Part shown: piece by piece, positions 667 to 10,032 of the stretch | How the letters are laid out: each line of letters opens with the position of its first letter | How positions within the stretch are numbered: position 1 is the first letter of the stretch | From: Thermoplasmatota archaeon | Lineage (GTDB): Archaea; Thermoplasmatota; Thermoplasmata; Thermoplasmatales; Thermoplasmataceae | Reading direction: 5' to 3' | Assembly: GCA_023484105.1 (NCBI GenBank) | Contig: JAMDBD010000009.1 | Location: 1 to 64,000, forward strand | Length of the DNA stretch: 64,000 nucleotides | Notes under the pieces: model-generated | What the model saw: only the letters and a program-made list of their open reading frames with translations | The model's database searches: none | Told to the model about the DNA's origin: nothing | Position numbers and translations under genes: made by a program

Positions 667-3508
667 ATGACCAAATTCAGACCTCTAGGTAAGTCAGCAG
701 AGAATACTAAAAACAGCTCTCTAACAGGCATGTTGGTTAATCTTGGTCTAGAGGCCTATTTTGAAAGAACAATAAACCTATCTGGCGTGGAGAAACCAGA
801 TATTCAGATTGTGCATAACGGATTCTACTTCATAGAGGCAAAACAGGAGCCAGCAACGATACAGGATGCTACGGCAAAAGCATACAAGTATCAGCAGTCC
901 CTCTCTTCAAATGGGATAATTCCTAAGGCTGTGTTTGGTATTTTGTACTCATCTGAGCCCACTGGATCATGCGAGGTTACTGCATTGTTTAATTACGACC
1001 CTTATTTTTTAAGGAAAAAGCTTGGAAACCTTGAGCAACTTGCGAACTGGATAAAGGAATTTATACTAAATCCTCCCAAATTATCTGAACCAGATGCAGA
1101 CGTAACAATAAACACCCTCAGAGAAATAGTATCCAATCTTACCAGCCAGATGGGTAAGATTTCAGCATCTGAAGTGGAGACGGTCTTTGGAGGGACAAGT
1201 GTTTTCGAGAACATTCTAGAATACAAACCTGGAAACTTGCCAGTCGAACAAATGAGAAGAGCGGCGGCGTTTCTACTTGTGAATCAGTTGCTATTCTACA
1301 GATTGCTGTCCAGGGAAAGCAGTGAGTACCCAGATATTAACGAAGATATCATAAGGAGCCCAGGGGACCTTCTGGTTTATTTTGCAAAAGTTCTAGAGAA
1401 GGATTATGCGGTGGTCTTTGGTTTTGATGTTGCCAGTAAAATTCCCCCCGAGGCTATGGAGCATCTAAGGTCAGCAATAATCACAATAAAGGCCCTTACT
1501 CCTGCAAAATTGCCGCATGACATAGTAGGTAGGATTTTTCATGATTTAATACCATTTGAATTGCGAAAATCCGTTGCAGCTTTCTATACAAACAACCAGG
1601 CAGCTGAAATTCTTGCAGCACTTTCAATTAACAAAGATGATGATAATGTGATTGATTTCGCATGTGGAAGTGGAACTCTTCTCGTGGCAGCCTATCATAT
1701 GAAGCAGATGTACCTTTCTGGTAGCAGAACATTTGACGAAAAGGATCACATAAGGTTCCTTGAGAAAGAGATAACGGGTATAGACATAATGCCATTTGCG
1801 GCACATCTTGCAGCAGTAAATCTCTCACTTCAGGCTCCACTATATGAGACAGAGAGGGTAAGGGTGGCAATTTGGGACTCAACAGAACTAAAGCCAAACA
1901 GGTCAATTCCGGCACTATCAGAAGAACTTACTGAGGCATACAGAAAACCAAAGCTGGAGATGTTCTTTGAAAACCAGCCCAGACCTCAGAAGTACATCAG
2001 GAAAGGTGGTATTGCACTGAATAAAGAGGGACGGACTGAGCTTCAACTCTCGCCTGTAGATGTATGTATAATGAACCCACCGTTCACAAGGCAGGAAAGA
2101 TTACCCGAATACTATAAGGAAAAACTAAAGGAAAGATTCAAGGAATACTCAGGTTACTTCTCAACACAACTTGGGCTTCCATGGGTATTTTATCCTGTTA
2201 GCGGACAGGTTTTTAAAAAAAGGTGGGAGAATTGCATTCGTTTTGCCCGCCACAACTTTGCGACTTAAGTCCTTTGAAGGAATCAGGAAACTACTCTCCG
2301 AAAAATACTGGCTGAAATATGTTGTTGTGAATGGAAGCCGATCTGCATTTTCCGAGAGTACTCAATTCAGGGAGGTTCTCATTGTGGCTGAAAAGGGTAA
2401 AATTATGGGTGATACAATCATTGCAATGTTGAATTCAATGCCTGCTAACAGGGAAGCGGCACTGACTTTTGCAGAATGCATCAGGAAAGGTGAAGGCGAT
2501 GATAAAAAGCAAATATATATTCTGAAAGAAAACCAGTCCTATGTGCTTGAAAACATAAACAGATATCTTGGAGAGAACCAATCCGAAGTTGAAAAACTGC
2601 TTACGAATATTCTTCAGAATACAGATAAACTAAGCAGATGGGAAATTTTTCTCAAAAGAGAGGGATATAATACACTTAGTGGCATTCATATGTGGAAAGG
2701 AGACACAATCTATGCTCAGAAAATGTTCATCCTATTCTCTACTGAAAGAGCAATCAAGAAGCATGACGAATGGTATCTCGATGGAACTACTGGTTCAAGT
2801 ATTATAGCAAAAAATAGAAATAACGGACTCAAGGTTGATATCTCACTTCGACATGTTGTCCCTTCGTTAAGGAGATATTCCGGGCTAGGTAAAATGAATA
2901 TTTCCAAAGAATTGGATTATCTGATTAAAGATGAATTTGACAAGCTAACTTATTTCATAACTGGAATTGGCAAAGAAGACCTTGTTAAGTGGGAAAGAGA
3001 TATAAAAAACAAGAGAGCACATGTTGTTATTGTAGGGAGATTTGATATATCAGCATCCGGAACCAAGTCCTTGGCATACTATTCCGAATCAGAATTTTCT
3101 CCATCTCAGATGTTCTGGCTTATCAAAGGAATCACAGGTGATGATGCAAAAATATTCGCGCTTTTCTGGAACAGTTTCATCAACATTTTGCAGATATTGT
3201 CAAAGAAAAAGGAAACTAGAGGGGCGTTTATTCAGATCCTGGCATACTCGTTTAAGGATTTCAGTGTAATAGATTGTTCAAGAGTCTCAGTTAGCTCAAG
3301 GGAAAATCTAATAAGTTTATTCGATGAGGTTTCACGTATGGACTTACGTTCAGTCCTTAGTAGGTTTGAGACTTTTGACGAAATGCAGGTAAGAATCGAT
3401 AACGCAATACTTGAAGCACTTGAAATACATTACACAGAGACGCAGCTGAGGGAGACTTATTCAATAATAGCAAGGGAAATAAAGAAACTCAAAGGCGTAA
3501 TGAAGTAG
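667..3508 (+). pseudogene. Type IIG-like restriction endonuclease / N6-adenine DNA methyltransferase, frameshifted
   Basis: Two overlapping frames (667-2268 and 2171-3508) together make one protein of about 947 residues. The first has a PD-(D/E)xK nuclease signature (KPD at residues 43-45, EAK near 55), then an N6-methylase domain with the SAM-binding motif FACGSGT near residue 330 and catalytic NPPF near 468. The second continues the methylase fold (GGRIAFVLPA) and has a C-terminal region expected to hold target recognition. Nuclease, methylase and recognition region in one chain is the type IIG layout; no separate specificity subunit is visible. Removing one C from the CC at about 2179-2180 joins the frames as LGLHGYFILLADRF. 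The lesion could be a real inactivation, phase variation or a sequencing error. Confidence 0.8.
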
Positions 3509-3747: not shown

Positions 3748-3865
3748 AGACAGAATATGTTCAAACCAATATCAATAATTAAACAATGGGGTTATTTCAC
3801 TCAAATACAAATGCGGGGGTAACCGAAAAGTTTTCCTGGAGGCTCGTACTCTTGTAGTGGTAGTG

Positions 3866-4783
3866 ATGTATAAGGTTTTGGATCTTTTTTCAGGAATGGG
3901 CGGATTTTCTTCCGGTTTTGTTCATGCCGGATTCGATGTTACTGGCGTCGACATTTCAGATCAAGTGGGAATGGCTTATGAGAAATTCACCGGGTCGAAA
4001 TTCTTGAAGATAGACCTCCGAAATGAAGATGTCATCGGAGATTTCGATGTTGTGATAGGTGGTCCCCCCTGCAGACCATGGTCAGCTGTGAACCGGTCAA
4101 AAAGCAGAGGTTCGAAACACAGAGATTTTTACCTTCTAAGCAGGTTCTTTCATCATGTTCTGTTGATGAGGCCGAAAATATTCATACTGGAGAACGTGCC
4201 TCTGCTTCGCAACGATCCTGAGTTTTTTGCCCAGCTTCAACGGGCCGCAGCTGCCGGTTATTCAGTCGCTCACAGAATCTTCAGATACTCGGATTTCGGC
4301 GCAGCAACATCAAGGAGAAGGCTGATCGCTGTCGGAATTCTTGATGGATCAGGCGATGACTTCCTGAATGATCTTGAAAGGATTAAGGGAAACCCTATGG
4401 ATGTCAGATCGGTAATTTCTGATTTCAGATATGCCTGTAAGAGCTGCCTTCCTGACCATGTGTGGCCAAACCTGAATACAGTGGGAAGATATAGGGAAAA
4501 GTATTATTATGGCAGATTTGGCTGGCGGATACTTGAGTGGGATGAGCCTGCTCCATCCTTTGGAAATGTGATGAAAACATACATACTGCACCCTGACTCT
4601 GATCTGGACAGTGGTGAGTATAGACCTGTTTCGGTTCTGGAGGTCTCAAGGATCATGGGGTTCAACCATGGTTTTTCTTTCCCTGAGGGCCTTGGGATGA
4701 GTATCCGGTATCAGATGCTTGTTGATTCGGTGAGTCCTGTATTCTCGAGTGTGCTGTCCCAGGCGGTTCTCAAATTTTTATAG
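3866..4783 (+). CDS. DNA (cytosine-5) methyltransferase
   Basis: The product, about 305 residues, transfers a methyl group from SAM to cytosine C5 in a DNA target. The family motifs appear in order: SAM-binding LFSGMGGFSSGF near the N-terminus, catalytic GGPPC with Cys69, ENV near residue 110, and TSRRRLI near 150. The length is typical of Dcm/HaeIII-type enzymes. GTG starts at 3857 and 3863 and an ATG at 3866 are all possible; I use the ATG. The stop overlaps the next start by one base (TAGTG), coupling it to the mismatch glycosylase. No cognate cytosine-specific endonuclease is visible, so it may be an orphan methylase or serve the convergent kinase/receiver pair. The recognition sequence cannot be read from the protein. 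Confidence 0.92.
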   Translation: MYKVLDLFSGMGGFSSGFVHAGFDVTGVDISDQVGMAYEKFTGSKFLKIDLRNEDVIGDFDVVIGGPPCRPWSAVNRSKSRGSKHRDFYLLSRFFHHVLLMRPKIFILENVPLLRNDPEFFAQLQRAAAAGYSVAHRIFRYSDFGAATSRRRLIAVGILDGSGDDFLNDLERIKGNPMDVRSVISDFRYACKSCLPDHVWPNLNTVGRYREKYYYGRFGWRILEWDEPAPSFGNVMKTYILHPDSDLDSGEYRPVSVLEVSRIMGFNHGFSFPEGLGMSIRYQMLVDSVSPVFSSVLSQAVLKFL

Positions 4784-5436
4784 TGAGAACATTGTCCAGC
4801 GTGGCGCAGAAACTGATCAACTGGTGGAAAATCAACGGTCGAAAGTTCCCTTGGCGTGAGACCTATGACACATACAGAATTTTTGTGGCTGAGATCCTGC
4901 TGCACAGGACAAGAGCAGAGAATGTGATGGGCGTATATGAAAAGTTCCTAGAGAAATTCCCGGACGTGACTGCACTTGCAACCGCCCGTTTCACAGATGT
5001 TGATGCGGTGATCGGAAAGCTGGGGCTGAGATGGCGTTCAATCATGCTTCTAGATGCCGCGAGGCGAATATTGGTACAGTTCAACGGTTCTGTGCCCACC
5101 GAAAAGGAAGTCCTGATGAAGCTTCCAGGAGTTGGCGAGTATATTGCATCAGCAGTTGTGATATTCTCTAGTGGAAAATTCTTACCGCTTCTGGATACGA
5201 ATATTGTAAGGGTTATCTCACGATACCTCGACATACCCAGTTACGACGGCTCAAGGCGGAGTGAAAAATACAGGAGATCTGTTACCAGATTTGTGGGTCT
5301 CGAGGATGTAAGAAATTCTTACTTCTCCATCATTGATCTTGGGGCTCTTGTATGCAGGGCCTCTGCCCCTTCTTGTCCAGTGTGCCCCATAAGAGAAACA
5401 TGCGAATATGCAGCCAAGACAGCAAAGGTGAGGTGA
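4783..5436 (+). CDS. Mig-type T:G mismatch DNA glycosylase (endonuclease III/MutY superfamily)
   Basis: This 217-residue HhH-GPD protein probably removes thymine from T:G mismatches made when 5-methylcytosine deaminates. The helix-hairpin-helix reads LPGVGEY at 114-120 and the catalytic aspartate is D138 in LLDTNIVRV. Tyr120 sits where endonuclease III has its lyase lysine; tyrosine at this place, 18 residues before the aspartate, marks the methylase-linked glycosylase Mig.MthI. The 4Fe-4S loop is complete (Cys191, 198, 201, 207; spacing C-x6-C-x2-C-x5-C). The GTG start overlaps the methylase stop, which fits a repair enzyme paired with a methylase, analogous to bacterial Vsr. A MutY-like A:G activity is a less likely alternative. 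Confidence 0.85.
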   Translation: MRTLSSVAQKLINWWKINGRKFPWRETYDTYRIFVAEILLHRTRAENVMGVYEKFLEKFPDVTALATARFTDVDAVIGKLGLRWRSIMLLDAARRILVQFNGSVPTEKEVLMKLPGVGEYIASAVVIFSSGKFLPLLDTNIVRVISRYLDIPSYDGSRRSEKYRRSVTRFVGLEDVRNSYFSIIDLGALVCRASAPSCPVCPIRETCEYAAKTAKVR

Positions 5437-5441
5437 TCTGA

Positions 5442-6548
5442 TTACTGGACAGTACTGCATTTAATGAAACTACTTATGAGTTCTTCTCTTCTAGGTGAGG
5501 TGTCAGGTGCACCAATACGCATTATATCCCTCATTACAGTTGCCTTTATGTCTTCGGCGTATGGGGATGCTACACTGAGCACTCTTACCCAGTCCTTGAT
5601 GTCACTGTATGGTCTGGTTTCGTAGAATTTCGTGTGTACCACCAATATCCCGCAATCTGACACGTCACTTGGAACCTTCAACGCTACGGTTCGTTCTTTT
5701 TCATCCTGAAGTTTAGGCTTCGTGCCTCCGACATAAGCTTCCTTATCTTTGGGACACGTGAAACAGCGCATCAACAGCACGTTTTTGATTTTTGGATCAC
5801 GGGCGTTTCCTCGATCATCCTTGACAGCCATGTCGCAGGTAGGTGACACAACCAGCCACAATTTACCTTCTGAGTCCTTCAGGACGTCTCCCATGGAAAT
5901 CGGCACCATCTCATCTTTCTGAAGCGGTGGATATATGATCATTGCCTCTGCAGGAATATCATCTGTGCCCGTCATAATGTCCATCCTTCTTGTCAGATAA
6001 CTCACCAGTCTTGAGATCATCATAGCACTGACGGCCCCGTATTCAACCTGATCCTTAGCTTGAAAGACCCTATCTAGGGTCTCAATTGAGATAGAACGGA
6101 ACTGTTTCCTTATCTCGTCTTCAATATTTACTAGAGCCATTCTGTAGCCTAGCAAATCACTAATCTCTTTCGAAAGGTTATTATTAATCGCACTGCTTTT
6201 ATTCACCACTCTGAAGAAATGCCAATTCCTTTTCAGTTTCTCGCTTATATCATCTGTGTAGGCACTGTATATAACAGCAGGAATGAAGAGGCTTTTGCTC
6301 ATCTCAACTAACCCATTAATGGTGCTTTGCACAGAATCTTGTTGATTGGTGAGATTGAGATCGAGCACCATGAGGACATAATTTTCACAAGAATCGACTT
6401 CTATTTCTCCCAGTTCCTGTAGGTCTTTTTTAAAGTCAGGGGTCACGGCCACGTTGTTATTTTTGGCAGCTTCATTTATAGCGACCTCTATGGTTGGCCA
6501 TGTGTTCTGATTATCTTCAACTACGATAACAATATTTTTACGCAGCAT
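5442..6548 (-). CDS. Response-regulator-like protein with unknown C-terminal domain
   Basis: Residues 1 to about 125 form a receiver domain with every key residue: acidic pair E11/D12, phosphoacceptor D63 in LMVLDLNL, S95 and K117. The remaining roughly 240 residues resemble no DNA-binding output domain; they hold a probable beta-rich region with the motif VVSPTCDM, several cysteines and a charged tail. The gene overlaps the upstream kinase-like gene by 11 bases, so the two are co-translated, and it ends five bases from the convergent glycosylase gene. I infer that phosphorylation by the partner controls the C-terminal domain, whose function I cannot name. Confidence 0.7.
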   Translation of the reverse strand: MLRKNIVIVVEDNQNTWPTIEVAINEAAKNNNVAVTPDFKKDLQELGEIEVDSCENYVLMVLDLNLTNQQDSVQSTINGLVEMSKSLFIPAVIYSAYTDDISEKLKRNWHFFRVVNKSSAINNNLSKEISDLLGYRMALVNIEDEIRKQFRSISIETLDRVFQAKDQVEYGAVSAMMISRLVSYLTRRMDIMTGTDDIPAEAMIIYPPLQKDEMVPISMGDVLKDSEGKLWLVVSPTCDMAVKDDRGNARDPKIKNVLLMRCFTCPKDKEAYVGGTKPKLQDEKERTVALKVPSDVSDCGILVVHTKFYETRPYSDIKDWVRVLSVASPYAEDIKATVMRDIMRIGAPDTSPRREELISSFIKCSTVQ

Positions 6549-8700
6549 GTTCCTCCCTCATTTTCGGCAAAGTGACAGTGAATTTTGCACCGCCCGTTTC
6601 GGACGTGCGCTGAAGTTCAATTTTACCGCCATATCGGTTCACAATGTCGTTGTTGACTGCCAGCCCTATTCCAGTTCCTGTGGGCTCCTTGAGGGAAAAG
6701 CCAAGCTCAAATATTTGATCGGTGTCTTCCTCATTTACCCCGGGTCCTGAGTCCTGAAACTCTATTATGATGCTCGCCTCGTTGCTTCTGGCGGATATTC
6801 TGATCTTCGGGACTCCGTCTGGGTTGCTTCCCCTGGGCGCCCAGTATATTGAATTCACTAGAAAATTCGTGAGCATTATCAGAATGTCAGTCTGATTCGC
6901 AACGAAAGAGAGTTGAGGCTCCAGATCAACTATTAATTTTATATTCGACTCCTTCAATTTGATTTCGTAGAGTTCTCTCAGCATGTCAATCACGTCGCTC
7001 AGAAGAACGGTTGTTTGGTTCCTGACCCGGAACCTCATGTATGGCATCATTCTGTCGAAGAGCTTTGCCAGCTGCTTTCCACCCTCTACCATGCTGTCTA
7101 TCATTCTCTTCAACTCGTCAGGTACTTCATTCATATGCTTCTCTATGTATCTGTATCCATCAACTATTGGTACAAGTGCGTTTCTTCCTGAGTGAATGAA
7201 CTCAGCGGCTATCACACCAGCAGTTGCCATCCGATCTCTTCCCAGAATCAGCTCTTCCAGGTCGGAACGTTTTCTATCCATTTCATCTGCTATGTTCAGA
7301 ACGCTCTGCTTTGCTTCATCTGGAAGACCCTTGGAAACTTCACGGAGCTCCTGTGTATCCAGAATATCGAATAGAGCACTGCCTTTTGAAAGCCTCTGGC
7401 TGCGCCGAACCCTGTATCTTATCTCCTCAAGCCTACTCATGAGTATGTATACCGTCTGCTTCAGGTACTCAAATGCTTCATTTTCTATCAGCCCCTCACG
7501 GTCAGTTTTGTCTATCAGGTTCTGGTTGATGTCCGATTTTATGTATATGGCTCCAACTATCTGGTTCGTGCTCAACCTCATTGTGGGATTCTGAACCCGG
7601 CGTATGTTCAGGCCAAGCCAGTCTGTTTTGGGTTTAACAGCGAGAATACCATCCCTCATCAGGCTAAAACCGGAGAAGTCATCGAGTGTTCCACGCAAAC
7701 CTCTGAAATCTTCACGATCCCTGTCCCATGCATAGAGCTTTAGTGAAATTGGCCCGCATCCGCCTTCCAAGACACTTGGATACCTTACTTTTTGATTGGA
7801 CATCGAATCTTTGAGTTCAATAACGCCTGTTATCTTAGTCTCTATATGTATGGATTTCTCATCTAGGTATGAAACTGATCCACTGTATTCCCCCTTTCCA
7901 TTGACAAGGACGCTGATTGAATAGTGTGGGTTCTTCAGCCTTGGGTCTGGTTCAAGGTCAATTGGTTTACCCATGTGAAAAAAAACTATGGAAAATCCTG
8001 AAATGGAAGCATCGAACGGGTGTAAAAGCCTGGAAAGTATAGCCCTAAGCGCACTCACTTTGCTCTGGTCCCACTTTCCTCTTAGGTCAGATATCCCTAT
8101 GATCGTTCCTGTATTGCTTTCCCCGGGAAACGATAGGGTATCATCCTCCGTCAAAAATTCAACTTTCAATGGTCCCGAAGAACCCTCGTCTTCTGAAGGA
8201 GTGACGTTCAATTCATCCATGGGAAGTTTCATCTTTAGATTTATCAGTTTATCATCAGCCGACTTGGTTCTGATTTCTATGGCGTTTCCAAGCCTGAATG
8301 CAGACAGCCTTCCTATCCCCTTTTCACCCAAAACACGCCTCTGTTTTATTGGAGATTTTGAATTACGCTTCTTCCAAGTTGTGCCCACCACCAGCCATGC
8401 ATTCTCTATTGTATCCCAGTTCATTCCTGTCCCGTTATCAGCTATACTGATCCTGTCCTCATCAATTCTGATCTCAACAATAGATGCATCTGCATCGTAG
8501 GAATTTTTTACAAGCTCACTTACCGCAACTTCATCCTTGGAAACAAGTTGCCTGCCGAGCTCAATCAACAGTCTCTGATCGAAACGGAACTTCAATTCCA
8601 CCATCTGGATACGCACTCCACGTTTTTCAACACTATCTGATGTATCATGGCCATGTTCCAGCTCCGCGCTGCTATTGACGCCAATTTTGTTTGACCACAT
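6538..8700 (-). CDS. Double-GHKL ATPase: Hsp90/MORC-like module fused to a histidine-kinase module
   Basis: This 720-residue protein has two ATP-binding modules. The N-terminal one has ELVKNSYDADA (62-72), DNGTGM (88-93) and GEKGIGRLS (125-133), as in Hsp90/MutL/MORC proteins. The C-terminal one is histidine-kinase-like: a divergent phosphoacceptor box FIHSGRN with His503, then an N box near 610, DSGPGV near 650, and a GTGIGLA lid. No membrane segment is seen, so it is cytoplasmic. ATG starts exist at 8700 and 8604; the second begins just before the conserved domain. It overlaps the receiver gene by 11 bases. GHKL ATPases of the MORC/MutL type are known to occur in restriction-modification operons, so a defence or damage-sensing role is plausible but inferred. 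Confidence 0.75.
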   Translation of the reverse strand: MWSNKIGVNSSAELEHGHDTSDSVEKRGVRIQMVELKFRFDQRLLIELGRQLVSKDEVAVSELVKNSYDADASIVEIRIDEDRISIADNGTGMNWDTIENAWLVVGTTWKKRNSKSPIKQRRVLGEKGIGRLSAFRLGNAIEIRTKSADDKLINLKMKLPMDELNVTPSEDEGSSGPLKVEFLTEDDTLSFPGESNTGTIIGISDLRGKWDQSKVSALRAILSRLLHPFDASISGFSIVFFHMGKPIDLEPDPRLKNPHYSISVLVNGKGEYSGSVSYLDEKSIHIETKITGVIELKDSMSNQKVRYPSVLEGGCGPISLKLYAWDRDREDFRGLRGTLDDFSGFSLMRDGILAVKPKTDWLGLNIRRVQNPTMRLSTNQIVGAIYIKSDINQNLIDKTDREGLIENEAFEYLKQTVYILMSRLEEIRYRVRRSQRLSKGSALFDILDTQELREVSKGLPDEAKQSVLNIADEMDRKRSDLEELILGRDRMATAGVIAAEFIHSGRNALVPIVDGYRYIEKHMNEVPDELKRMIDSMVEGGKQLAKLFDRMMPYMRFRVRNQTTVLLSDVIDMLRELYEIKLKESNIKLIVDLEPQLSFVANQTDILIMLTNFLVNSIYWAPRGSNPDGVPKIRISARSNEASIIIEFQDSGPGVNEEDTDQIFELGFSLKEPTGTGIGLAVNNDIVNRYGGKIELQRTSETGGAKFTVTLPKMREEHAA

Positions 8701-8743: not shown

Positions 8744-9310
8744 TCATTTTCCTCCTCTCACCCTCGCAAACATGTCCTGGACCGGTGCCAGAGTAAGGGC
8801 ATAGCCGATGTGATAGCAGTCAAAAGATTCATCAAGCTCGCACCACAGCCTGAGCTGCCCATGCCCATTTTCCCTGATGTAGATATTGAATATGCGCTCC
8901 TTCCCGGTTCCGGCATGGTTCGTCTCCATTATTGTAACGTGATCATCGTAGACATTCACGTGTATCAGTGCATGAAGGTTTTTCCATTTCTCCTTCCACT
9001 CCCCCGGTACGTTGGATATCTCTATTCTCCCCTCATCCTCATGGATCACGACGCCCTTGGCAGTTTCCTCAGCCTTCTTGAGCTGCTCGGCCACTAGTCG
9101 TCCCTTTGAAGTAAGAGATATAAAATATCTCCTTGGTCCCACCTTGGACTCCTGAATAGTCAAATAATCGTCCTTCTGTAAAGCCTCGAGCAAGTTATCA
9201 AGAACCTGATGACTCTTTATTATAGTAAATAAATCGGATTTTTTAGCGGTATCAGTCTTACTCAGCGCTATGAGAACTGATTTGGAATGCTTGAGATCGA
9301 GCGAGTCCAT
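8744..9310 (-). CDS. Winged-helix transcriptional regulator
   Basis: The 188-residue product starts with a winged-helix domain (about residues 5-80: SDLFTIIKSHQVLDNLLEAL..., then a wing ending in RRYFISLTSKG), as in MarR/PadR-like archaeal regulators. The C-terminal half is a probable alpha/beta ligand or dimerisation domain I do not recognise. It is transcribed away from the AbrB-like gene; the shared 120-base gap carries two near-identical palindromes, so it probably represses itself and its neighbour. It lies 43 bases upstream of the kinase gene on the same strand and could also control that pair. Confidence 0.7.
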   Translation of the reverse strand: MDSLDLKHSKSVLIALSKTDTAKKSDLFTIIKSHQVLDNLLEALQKDDYLTIQESKVGPRRYFISLTSKGRLVAEQLKKAEETAKGVVIHEDEGRIEISNVPGEWKEKWKNLHALIHVNVYDDHVTIMETNHAGTGKERIFNIYIRENGHGQLRLWCELDESFDCYHIGYALTLAPVQDMFARVRGGK

Positions 9311-9602: not shown

Positions 9603-9760
9603 GAATTTTCCGCCGCCAGAAGAACGTTCAAAGGGAGTTCGAGCCTGACTGCTGTCCGGTCTGCGGGGTCAGCTTTGCTATGCTTCCGGAGACGTACAGG
9701 AAGGCGGCACTGGAGACGCATGTCAGGGGATGTTCCGTCCCCGGCAGGGAGGTGCTCTGA
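9599..9760 (+). CDS. Small C2HC zinc-finger protein
   Basis: A 53-residue basic protein with one zinc-finger pattern: CCPVCG (Cys18/19, Cys22), then after 18 residues His41-x3-Cys45. Its start overlaps the AbrB-like stop (ATGA) and its stop overlaps the start of the recombinase remnant (TGATG). Short zinc fingers of this kind are common on archaeal plasmids and integrated elements, which fits the setting beside an integrase fragment and a tRNA. No function is assigned beyond probable nucleic-acid binding. Confidence 0.55.
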   Translation: MRIFRRQKNVQREFEPDCCPVCGVSFAMLPETYRKAALETHVRGCSVPGREVL

Positions 9761-9928
9761 TGGTTATCGAGAGGTGCTGTGTGTCGGTCGTCTATGTCTC
9801 CCAGCTCCTGGGCCATGAGGACCTGGAATCCACCTCAATATATCTTCATCCCAGCCAGTATGAGGCCATAGAAAAGGTCAGATCCGTGGATCTCTTCAGG
9901 GTGCAGAATCCGGCGGATTCGCACAGTA
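9760..9928 (+). pseudogene. Tyrosine recombinase (integrase) C-terminal remnant
   Basis: The frame encodes YVSQLLGHEDLESTSIYLHP, the last conserved block of XerC/D-type integrases with the LLGH histidine and the catalytic tyrosine in SIYLH. The upstream arginine and HxxR boxes are absent, since the zinc-finger ORF abuts directly, so this cannot be an active integrase. The open frame continues across the tRNA-Ala gene on the other strand, but that extension is only the tRNA read backwards. An integrase tail beside a tRNA 3' end is the usual scar of element integration. Confidence 0.75.
9906..9920. repeat. Inverted repeat just 3' of tRNA-Ala (GAATCC-N3-GGATTC)
   Basis: A perfect 6-base inverted repeat with a three-base spacer, nine bases beyond the tRNA 3' end and inside the integrase remnant. 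It could be a tRNA transcript-end hairpin or a recombinase arm site. Confidence 0.45.
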
Positions 9929-10000
9929 TGGACCGGCGGGGATTTGAACCCCGGGCCTCTTCCATGCCAAGGAAGCGATCTACCTCTGATCTACCGGCCC
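9929..10000 (-). tRNA. tRNA-Ala(GGC)
   Basis: The minus strand folds as a complete 72-base cloverleaf. The acceptor GGGCCGG pairs with CCGGTCC and contains the G3:U70 alanine identity pair. The anticodon arm is CTTCC-TTGGCAT-GGAAG (anticodon GGC), and the T arm is CGGGG-TTCAAAT-CCCCG. The discriminator is A; CCA is not encoded and there is no intron. The gene marks the right edge of the accessory island. Confidence 0.95.
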
Positions 10001-10022
10001 CTGCAAGGGTAAGGTTAGACTG

Positions 10023-10032
10023 ACTATAAAAC
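10023..10032 (-). promoter_or_regulatory. TATA box of tRNA-Ala
   Basis: On the minus strand the sequence reads GTTTTATAGT, about 25 bases upstream of the tRNA 5' end, which is standard archaeal spacing. Confidence 0.6.

Follow-up and report, generated by a model that had tools for sequence, protein, structure and literature searches.

What does a sensor kinase with two ATPase sites control when its partner response regulator ends in a domain to which Pfam, NCBIfam and PADLOC assign no family? The question is raised by two adjoining genes in the first 64,000 nucleotides of contig JAMDBD010000009.1 from a Thermoplasmatota archaeon, a stretch that we refer to, at its full length, as the window. 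The kinase and receiver open reading frames (ORFs) lie on the minus strand, overlap by 11 bases, are both open without an internal stop, and end 5 bases from a convergent glycosylase ORF that comes after a cytosine methylase gene. A first-pass annotation of this DNA had proposed them as a candidate defence or damage-signalling pair. Judged from its sequence, the pair is an archaeal, highly divergent relative of a described two-component system linked to restriction-modification (R-M), the pairing itself having been reported in 2021, and structure prediction gives good support for a MazF/PemK fold, that of RNase toxins, in the C-terminal domain of the receiver protein. The reading that we favour, while putting it somewhat short of an even chance, is that the pair was acquired horizontally and serves as an R-M-linked two-component system in which a methylation-coupled phosphorelay arms a toxin-fold effector.

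The proposed output rests on two structural models. The AlphaFold model of the window receiver protein (pLDDT 80, pTM 0.74) begins with a (beta-alpha)5 receiver, which a helical linker joins to a small beta-barrel with a C-terminal helix. Searched against the PDB with Foldseek, it retrieved MazF-mt3 as the top match (3.8e-4, prob 1.00), with other MazF proteins ranking lower and the rest being mostly receiver domains. Modelled separately (pLDDT 89, pTM 0.78), the C-terminal domain of a homologue from Chloroflexota retrieved the type III toxin CptN first in the same search and, in the rest of the top 50, solely MazF-family toxins, TM-scores reaching 0.75 by target length. Of its nine best matches in the viral library, those with names were endoribonuclease, PemK and MazF proteins. 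The idea that the domain is something other than an ordinary metabolic output is thus borne out by prediction, in both models and both libraries. Two further candidates, a Detocs-like nucleosidase or NADase output and a DNA-binding output, are ruled out by the predicted fold. In an alignment of 45 receiver homologues, the conserved residues of the domain are Cys238, Pro236 and Asp239, which belong to a PTCD motif (PxCD in the family), together with Gly346 (44/45) and Arg344 (42/45). A literature search, incomplete in coverage, turned up no report of a receiver fused to a MazF-like domain. In another archaeal genome, a standalone 210-amino-acid (aa) relative of the PxCD domain with the motif SETCDL (L139:9391-10023(-)) lies in a row with 136-aa and 244-aa ORFs and with no double-GHKL kinase nearby, so the domain also exists outside two-component systems.

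The kinase combines HATPase_c_3, a His box and HATPase_c in one soluble protein; both ATPase domains recur in all 51 kinase homologues of the family alignment, and the GHKL residues of the two ATP sites are conserved in every one, or almost every one, of these proteins. Over the DHp and catalytic domains, the profile of these 51 members matches ThkA (3a0r) at 6.2e-40, and His503, invariant in the family (51/51), falls on the phospho-accepting His of ThkA and FixL in the profile alignment. The receiver domain was not matched in a single-sequence Pfam search of the window protein; the profile built from the 45 homologues does find response regulators of solved structure, ArlR scoring best at 3.6e-11, and Asp12, Asp63 and T/S95 are each conserved in 45/45, position 117 being Lys in 39 and Arg in 6. 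Three elements of the first-pass annotation stand on these grounds: two full GHKL sites in one protein, a receiver with all phosphorelay residues, and a divergent box around His503, where the following residue is Ser in the window as against Glu or Asp in 49 of 51 homologues. The N-terminus of the kinase resembles restriction enzymes of the BbrUII/HgiDII type (NF050001, 5.1e-33, residues 38-238), and the PADLOC model REase_II matches 50 of the 51 family members. Its gene probably spans 6538-8604, with the true start at Met33 (base 8604) rather than at base 8700, since homologues begin near Met33 and profile matches extend to 8604. A longer receiver variant of about 430-560 aa (loci L060, L061, L069, L073, L076, L080, L085, L086, L088 and L089) goes unrecognised by Pfam, yet retains the receiver residues and the invariant Cys-Asp.

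The company that the pair keeps was surveyed in 89 neighbourhoods, made up of the window, 8 plasmid loci and 80 loci, all bacterial to judge by their titles, that were retained from 565 relatives found by a kinase-alignment search of genome contigs. Single-sequence searches yielded no relatives, either for the receiver in genome contigs or for the kinase in viral contigs. A C5 methylase lies nearby in 65 of the 89 loci, so that homologous pairs do sit mostly near defence-type genes, here methylase and mismatch-repair (R-M) genes, as had been anticipated. Within these 65 loci, Vsr is found in 37, a Mig-type glycosylase in 6 (window included) and both together in none, a mutual exclusion with p about 0.005 if the two were independent. 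Mapped on the kinase tree, the Mig label has to change six times, with well-supported branches forcing at least five of the changes, and two Mig loci each have a Vsr locus as fully supported sister; the two unrelated T:G repair enzymes thus replace each other repeatedly. This swap suggests that the methylase is retained in company with an enzyme that repairs the mutagenic by-product of its activity, a partnership that argues for a working, long-kept methylation system over a transient R-M cassette. Convergent layouts like that of the window also occur in Campylobacter and Fusobacterium.

A separate clade of the kinase tree (support 99) bears on the role of the output domain. In its loci the receiver is short, the kinase is accompanied by a nuclease of the HNH (7) or MBL-fold (6) type, and an N6 methylase is mostly present as well. 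Such a nuclease, encoded separately, occurs in 13/13 short-receiver loci (L006, L007, L008, L009, L048, L058, L062, L065, L072, L075, L078, L082 and L084), compared with 0/62 loci with the long, PxCD-type receiver, a contrast that would follow if the C-terminal domain were the effector. The short-receiver clade seems to be a second form of this signalling scheme, armed with a nuclease. A recurrent common restriction nuclease was sought near the C5 loci and not found; a minority lie near a restriction endonuclease, AspBHI-like in 5 loci and EcoRII-C in L031. On a Hymenobacter plasmid (L003:5996-12832), the pair directly precedes a row of DUF3883, ATP-binding, Z1, PD-(D/E)XK and AIPR genes known to be R-M-like, and parts of this company recur in L032, L033, L036, L037, L057, L085 and L088.

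Table 1. Positions of the kinase-receiver pair, its domains and its neighbours in the window.
Feature	Position	Strand	Basis or remark
C5-cytosine DNA methyltransferase	3857..4783	+	Pfam; sole PF00145 match in the genome
Mig-type T/G mismatch DNA glycosylase (HhH-GPD, 4Fe-4S), putative	4783..5436	+	Stands where most relatives have Vsr
Receiver protein, 368 aa	5442..6548	-	ORF list, family profile, AlphaFold model
Predicted MazF/PemK-fold output domain, residues about 200-348	5505..5951	-	AlphaFold models, Foldseek
PTCD codons, residues 236-239	5832..5843	-	Cys238 45/45, Pro236 44/45, Asp239 41/45
Receiver domain, (beta-alpha)5, Asp12/Asp63/Ser95/Lys117	6147..6539	-	Family profile, AlphaFold; Asp63 codon 6360-6362
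ParaMORC-type sensor kinase ORF, 720 aa	6538..8700	-	ORF list, Pfam, family alignment
Second GHKL domain, HATPase_c, kinase catalytic domain, residues 603-713	6562..6894	-	Pfam 2.3e-22
His503 codon, aligned to the sensor-kinase phospho-accepting His; next residue Ser504	7192..7194	-	
First GHKL ATPase domain, HATPase_c_3, residues 57-152	8245..8532	-	Pfam 6.9e-20
Tyrosine recombinase C-terminal fragment, over the tRNA gene on the other strand	9730..10023	+	PF00589 positions 148-169, E 0.015, below cut-off
tRNA-Ala(GGC)	9929..10000	-	3' end (base 9929) marks the border of the island

The glycosylase of the window aligns about equally with MutY and with Mig (PDB 1kea), and the distinction was made at the positions described as separating the T/G-specific Mig.MthI from MutY (PMC2714593). 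Like Mig.MthI, it contributes Phe and Arg to the methyl pocket and has Ala in place of Val45 and Tyr in place of Ser120, and it lacks the Gln182 of MutY; its even overall similarity to the two enzymes sets it apart from Mig.MthI, and its T/G activity is putative. In the five glycosylases beside related kinases, the Ala recurs in four and the Tyr in all five. By these residues, the protein is of the Mig T/G type and not MutY proper. The convergent methylase/glycosylase pair noted in the first-pass annotation is thus confirmed in both members and in its distance, with the identity of the glycosylase corrected, and a putative Mig-type enzyme beside a C5 methylase is what repair of deaminated 5-methylcytosine needs. 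Two overlapping frames further left, 667-2268(+) and 2171-3508(+), are the two halves of one Eco57I/N6-type methylase (PF07669 positions 2-106 and 115-170), split by either a frame shift or an assembly error. Directly upstream of the kinase and on its strand, a 188-aa ORF (8744-9310(-)) with a winged-helix-like N-terminus is possibly a regulator of the island.

Alignments of the window with three genomes of its genus all begin at base 9927-9929 and run rightwards only. The island, as already proposed, abuts a tRNA: it comprises everything left of base 9929, pair included, and ends exactly at the 3' end of tRNA-Ala, the window itself beginning at a contig end on the island side. The putative recombinase fragment lying over the tRNA gene, a weak match, is what one would look for at the border of an integrated archaeal element. 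The genome is archaeal, its small-subunit ribosomal RNA matching the archaeal model over its full length with 1506 bits, the best of the clan. Among 390 genomes of this archaeal phylum, the pair occurs in one, that of the window, which makes a bacterial source most likely. In the same genomes, a single-sequence search with the receiver found nothing beyond the window's own genome, and a domain profile reached two further archaeal genomes, one with a free-standing ORF of 210 aa and the other with a short fragment containing a stop; neither match adjoins a double-GHKL kinase. On the kinase tree, the window kinase sits on a very long branch, with many departures from the family consensus.

On the reading of a methylation-coupled relay, the C5 methylase would mark self DNA, while the Mig glycosylase would mend T:G mismatches arising from deamination of 5-methylcytosine and so protect the marked sites from mutation. 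The MORC-like N-terminal ATPase of the kinase would read the state of the DNA, be it foreign, unmethylated or damaged, the sensing of damage being what we infer for this module. Its second GHKL/DHp module could then transfer the phosphate of His503 to the receiver, at Asp63. The active form of MazF is a dimer, and the phosphorylated receiver might likewise dimerise, bringing two MazF-fold domains together and arming them. Once armed, these would arrest growth by acting on RNA, like toxins of the MazF/ToxN fold, and may in this way serve defence or otherwise benefit the host. The predicted MazF-like domain hints, in other words, at a methylation-linked switch able to stop growth. We suggest, tentatively, that this holds for a widespread R-M-linked class in bacteria and archaea, in which the target of a MORC-like DNA-state kinase is a receiver with a MazF-fold toxin as output and PxCD as a new type of active site, forming an epigenetically gated, phosphorelay-controlled abortive-infection or self-guarding switch.

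Several observations weigh against a toxin armed by phosphorelay. An hhalign comparison of the receiver family with 15 MazF homologues was weak (p 0.005, probability 6.8%); it aligned the same strand-strand-helix region in register. MazF catalysis is defined by an Arg at the start of strand 2 and a Thr at the end of strand 3, and neither the Arg before strand 2 nor the Thr after strand 3 is conserved in the receiver family, which keeps the Cys, Pro, Asp, Gly and Arg named above instead. Profile searches with PF02452 (PemK) gave no match in the genome of the window and none in the 45 receiver homologues. In the window kinase, the residue after the core His is Ser504 in place of the acidic residue of its homologues, which makes phosphotransfer doubtful. 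Since the HNH and MBL seeds behind the 0/62 count were taken from members of the short-receiver clade, nucleases unrelated to them could have escaped notice in C5 loci. Finally, some relatives have ordinary restriction endonucleases of the EcoRII-C or AspBHI-like type beside them, and the pair may therefore play an accessory part.

The last of these points, like the missing canonical MazF residues, would also suit a purely regulatory pair. Here the neighbouring R-M genes would be under its control and the MazF-fold barrel would lack catalytic activity and adjust the methylase or its partner by binding RNA, DNA or protein, as suggested by the authors who described such pairs and who favoured R-M control (PMC8011034). 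We consider this unlikely, though it is the alternative that survives best, as PxCD is nearly invariant across many bacterial phyla in the manner of an active site and most C5 loci are without a recurrent separate effector. A distinctly smaller probability attaches to the kinase and receiver being a restriction component, an ATP-driven DNA clamp like the GHKL-type BbrUII/HgiDII, with the C-terminal domain of the receiver or Vsr/Mig cutting unmethylated DNA. Such a clamp would account for the restriction-enzyme likeness of the kinase N-terminus and the REase_II matches, for the many C5 loci that lack any other recognised nuclease and for the HNH or MBL nuclease at the equivalent place in the sister clade; it fits poorly with a predicted C-terminal fold that is shared with RNase toxins and not with a known DNA-cutting enzyme, and it has no need of a phosphorelay, yet D12, D63 and His503 are invariant. 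Least probable is that the pair is a decaying island passenger, no longer signalling in this archaeon: Ser504, the long branch with its many departures from consensus, the frame-shifted N6 methylase next door and the single occurrence in 390 genomes make decay a real possibility for the archaeal copy, though not for the family, but both frames are open and all family-invariant kinase and receiver residues are retained, PxCD included.

A phosphorelay that arms a toxin-fold effector remains our preferred reading. The output of such pairs was left unexplained in 2021, and a MazF-fold output turns a possible R-M regulator into a concrete, testable proposal, namely a phosphorylation-controlled toxin tied to cytosine methylation.

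How does the pair relate to known systems? Detocs couples kinase-to-receiver logic to an effector output, and the first-pass annotation had drawn this parallel. The window pair contains no phosphorylase or nucleosidase domain, differs from Detocs in its sensor and effector domains and is methylase-linked; PADLOC has no system model for it and gave no Detocs-type match. From the original proposal, the kinase-receiver pair and the R-M-type neighbours hold, joined by a predicted toxin-fold output, and the likeness to Detocs is dropped. With the MazF/PemK and ToxN/CptN toxins, the C-terminal domain shares its predicted fold and strand order. It differs in being fused behind a receiver, in having no antitoxin gene and no PF02452 match, and in carrying PxCD and RxGxP motifs instead of the catalytic Arg and Thr of MazF/PemK. 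Iyer et al. (2008) placed MORC/paraMORC ATPases in R-M operons (PMC2292703), and with these and BbrUII/HgiDII the window system has in common a MORC-like N-terminal ATPase and the company of a cytosine methylase and Vsr-type repair; unlike BbrUII/HgiDII, it has a second GHKL/kinase module and a receiver partner, and no fused nuclease.

The closest counterpart is the bacterial, paraMORC-associated system of Bellieny-Rabelo et al. (2021), in which kinases of HATPase_c_3, HEF_HK and HATPase_c are paired with Response_reg_2 proteins at 91.6% linkage, in the company of C5 methylases and Vsr (PMC8011034). Its authors put forward a two-component system connected with R-M, and in the receiver proteins they saw no further known domain. 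The window pair likewise has a HATPase_c_3, His-box and HATPase_c kinase adjoining a divergent receiver protein, a C5 methylase and a T:G repair gene in its neighbourhood, and no membrane parts; its adjacent receiver gene encodes the invariant Asp, the paired acids, the T/S and the Lys. Unlike that system, it resides in an archaeal host, draws the V-gene function beside its C5 methylase from a putative Mig-type glycosylase and not from Vsr, has a MazF fold predicted in the receiver and lacks the acidic residue next to the core His. Since neither PF19191 (HEF_HK) nor PF19192 (Response_reg_2) matches the window proteins at E <= 1, we regard the pair as a relative working like that system and not as a member of the Pfam families, whose models match 2/51 kinases and 1/45 receivers in the family at large. 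To the published system, the present analysis adds an archaeal member, a predicted MazF-fold output, the exchange of Vsr for Mig and a sister clade linked to HNH or MBL nucleases.

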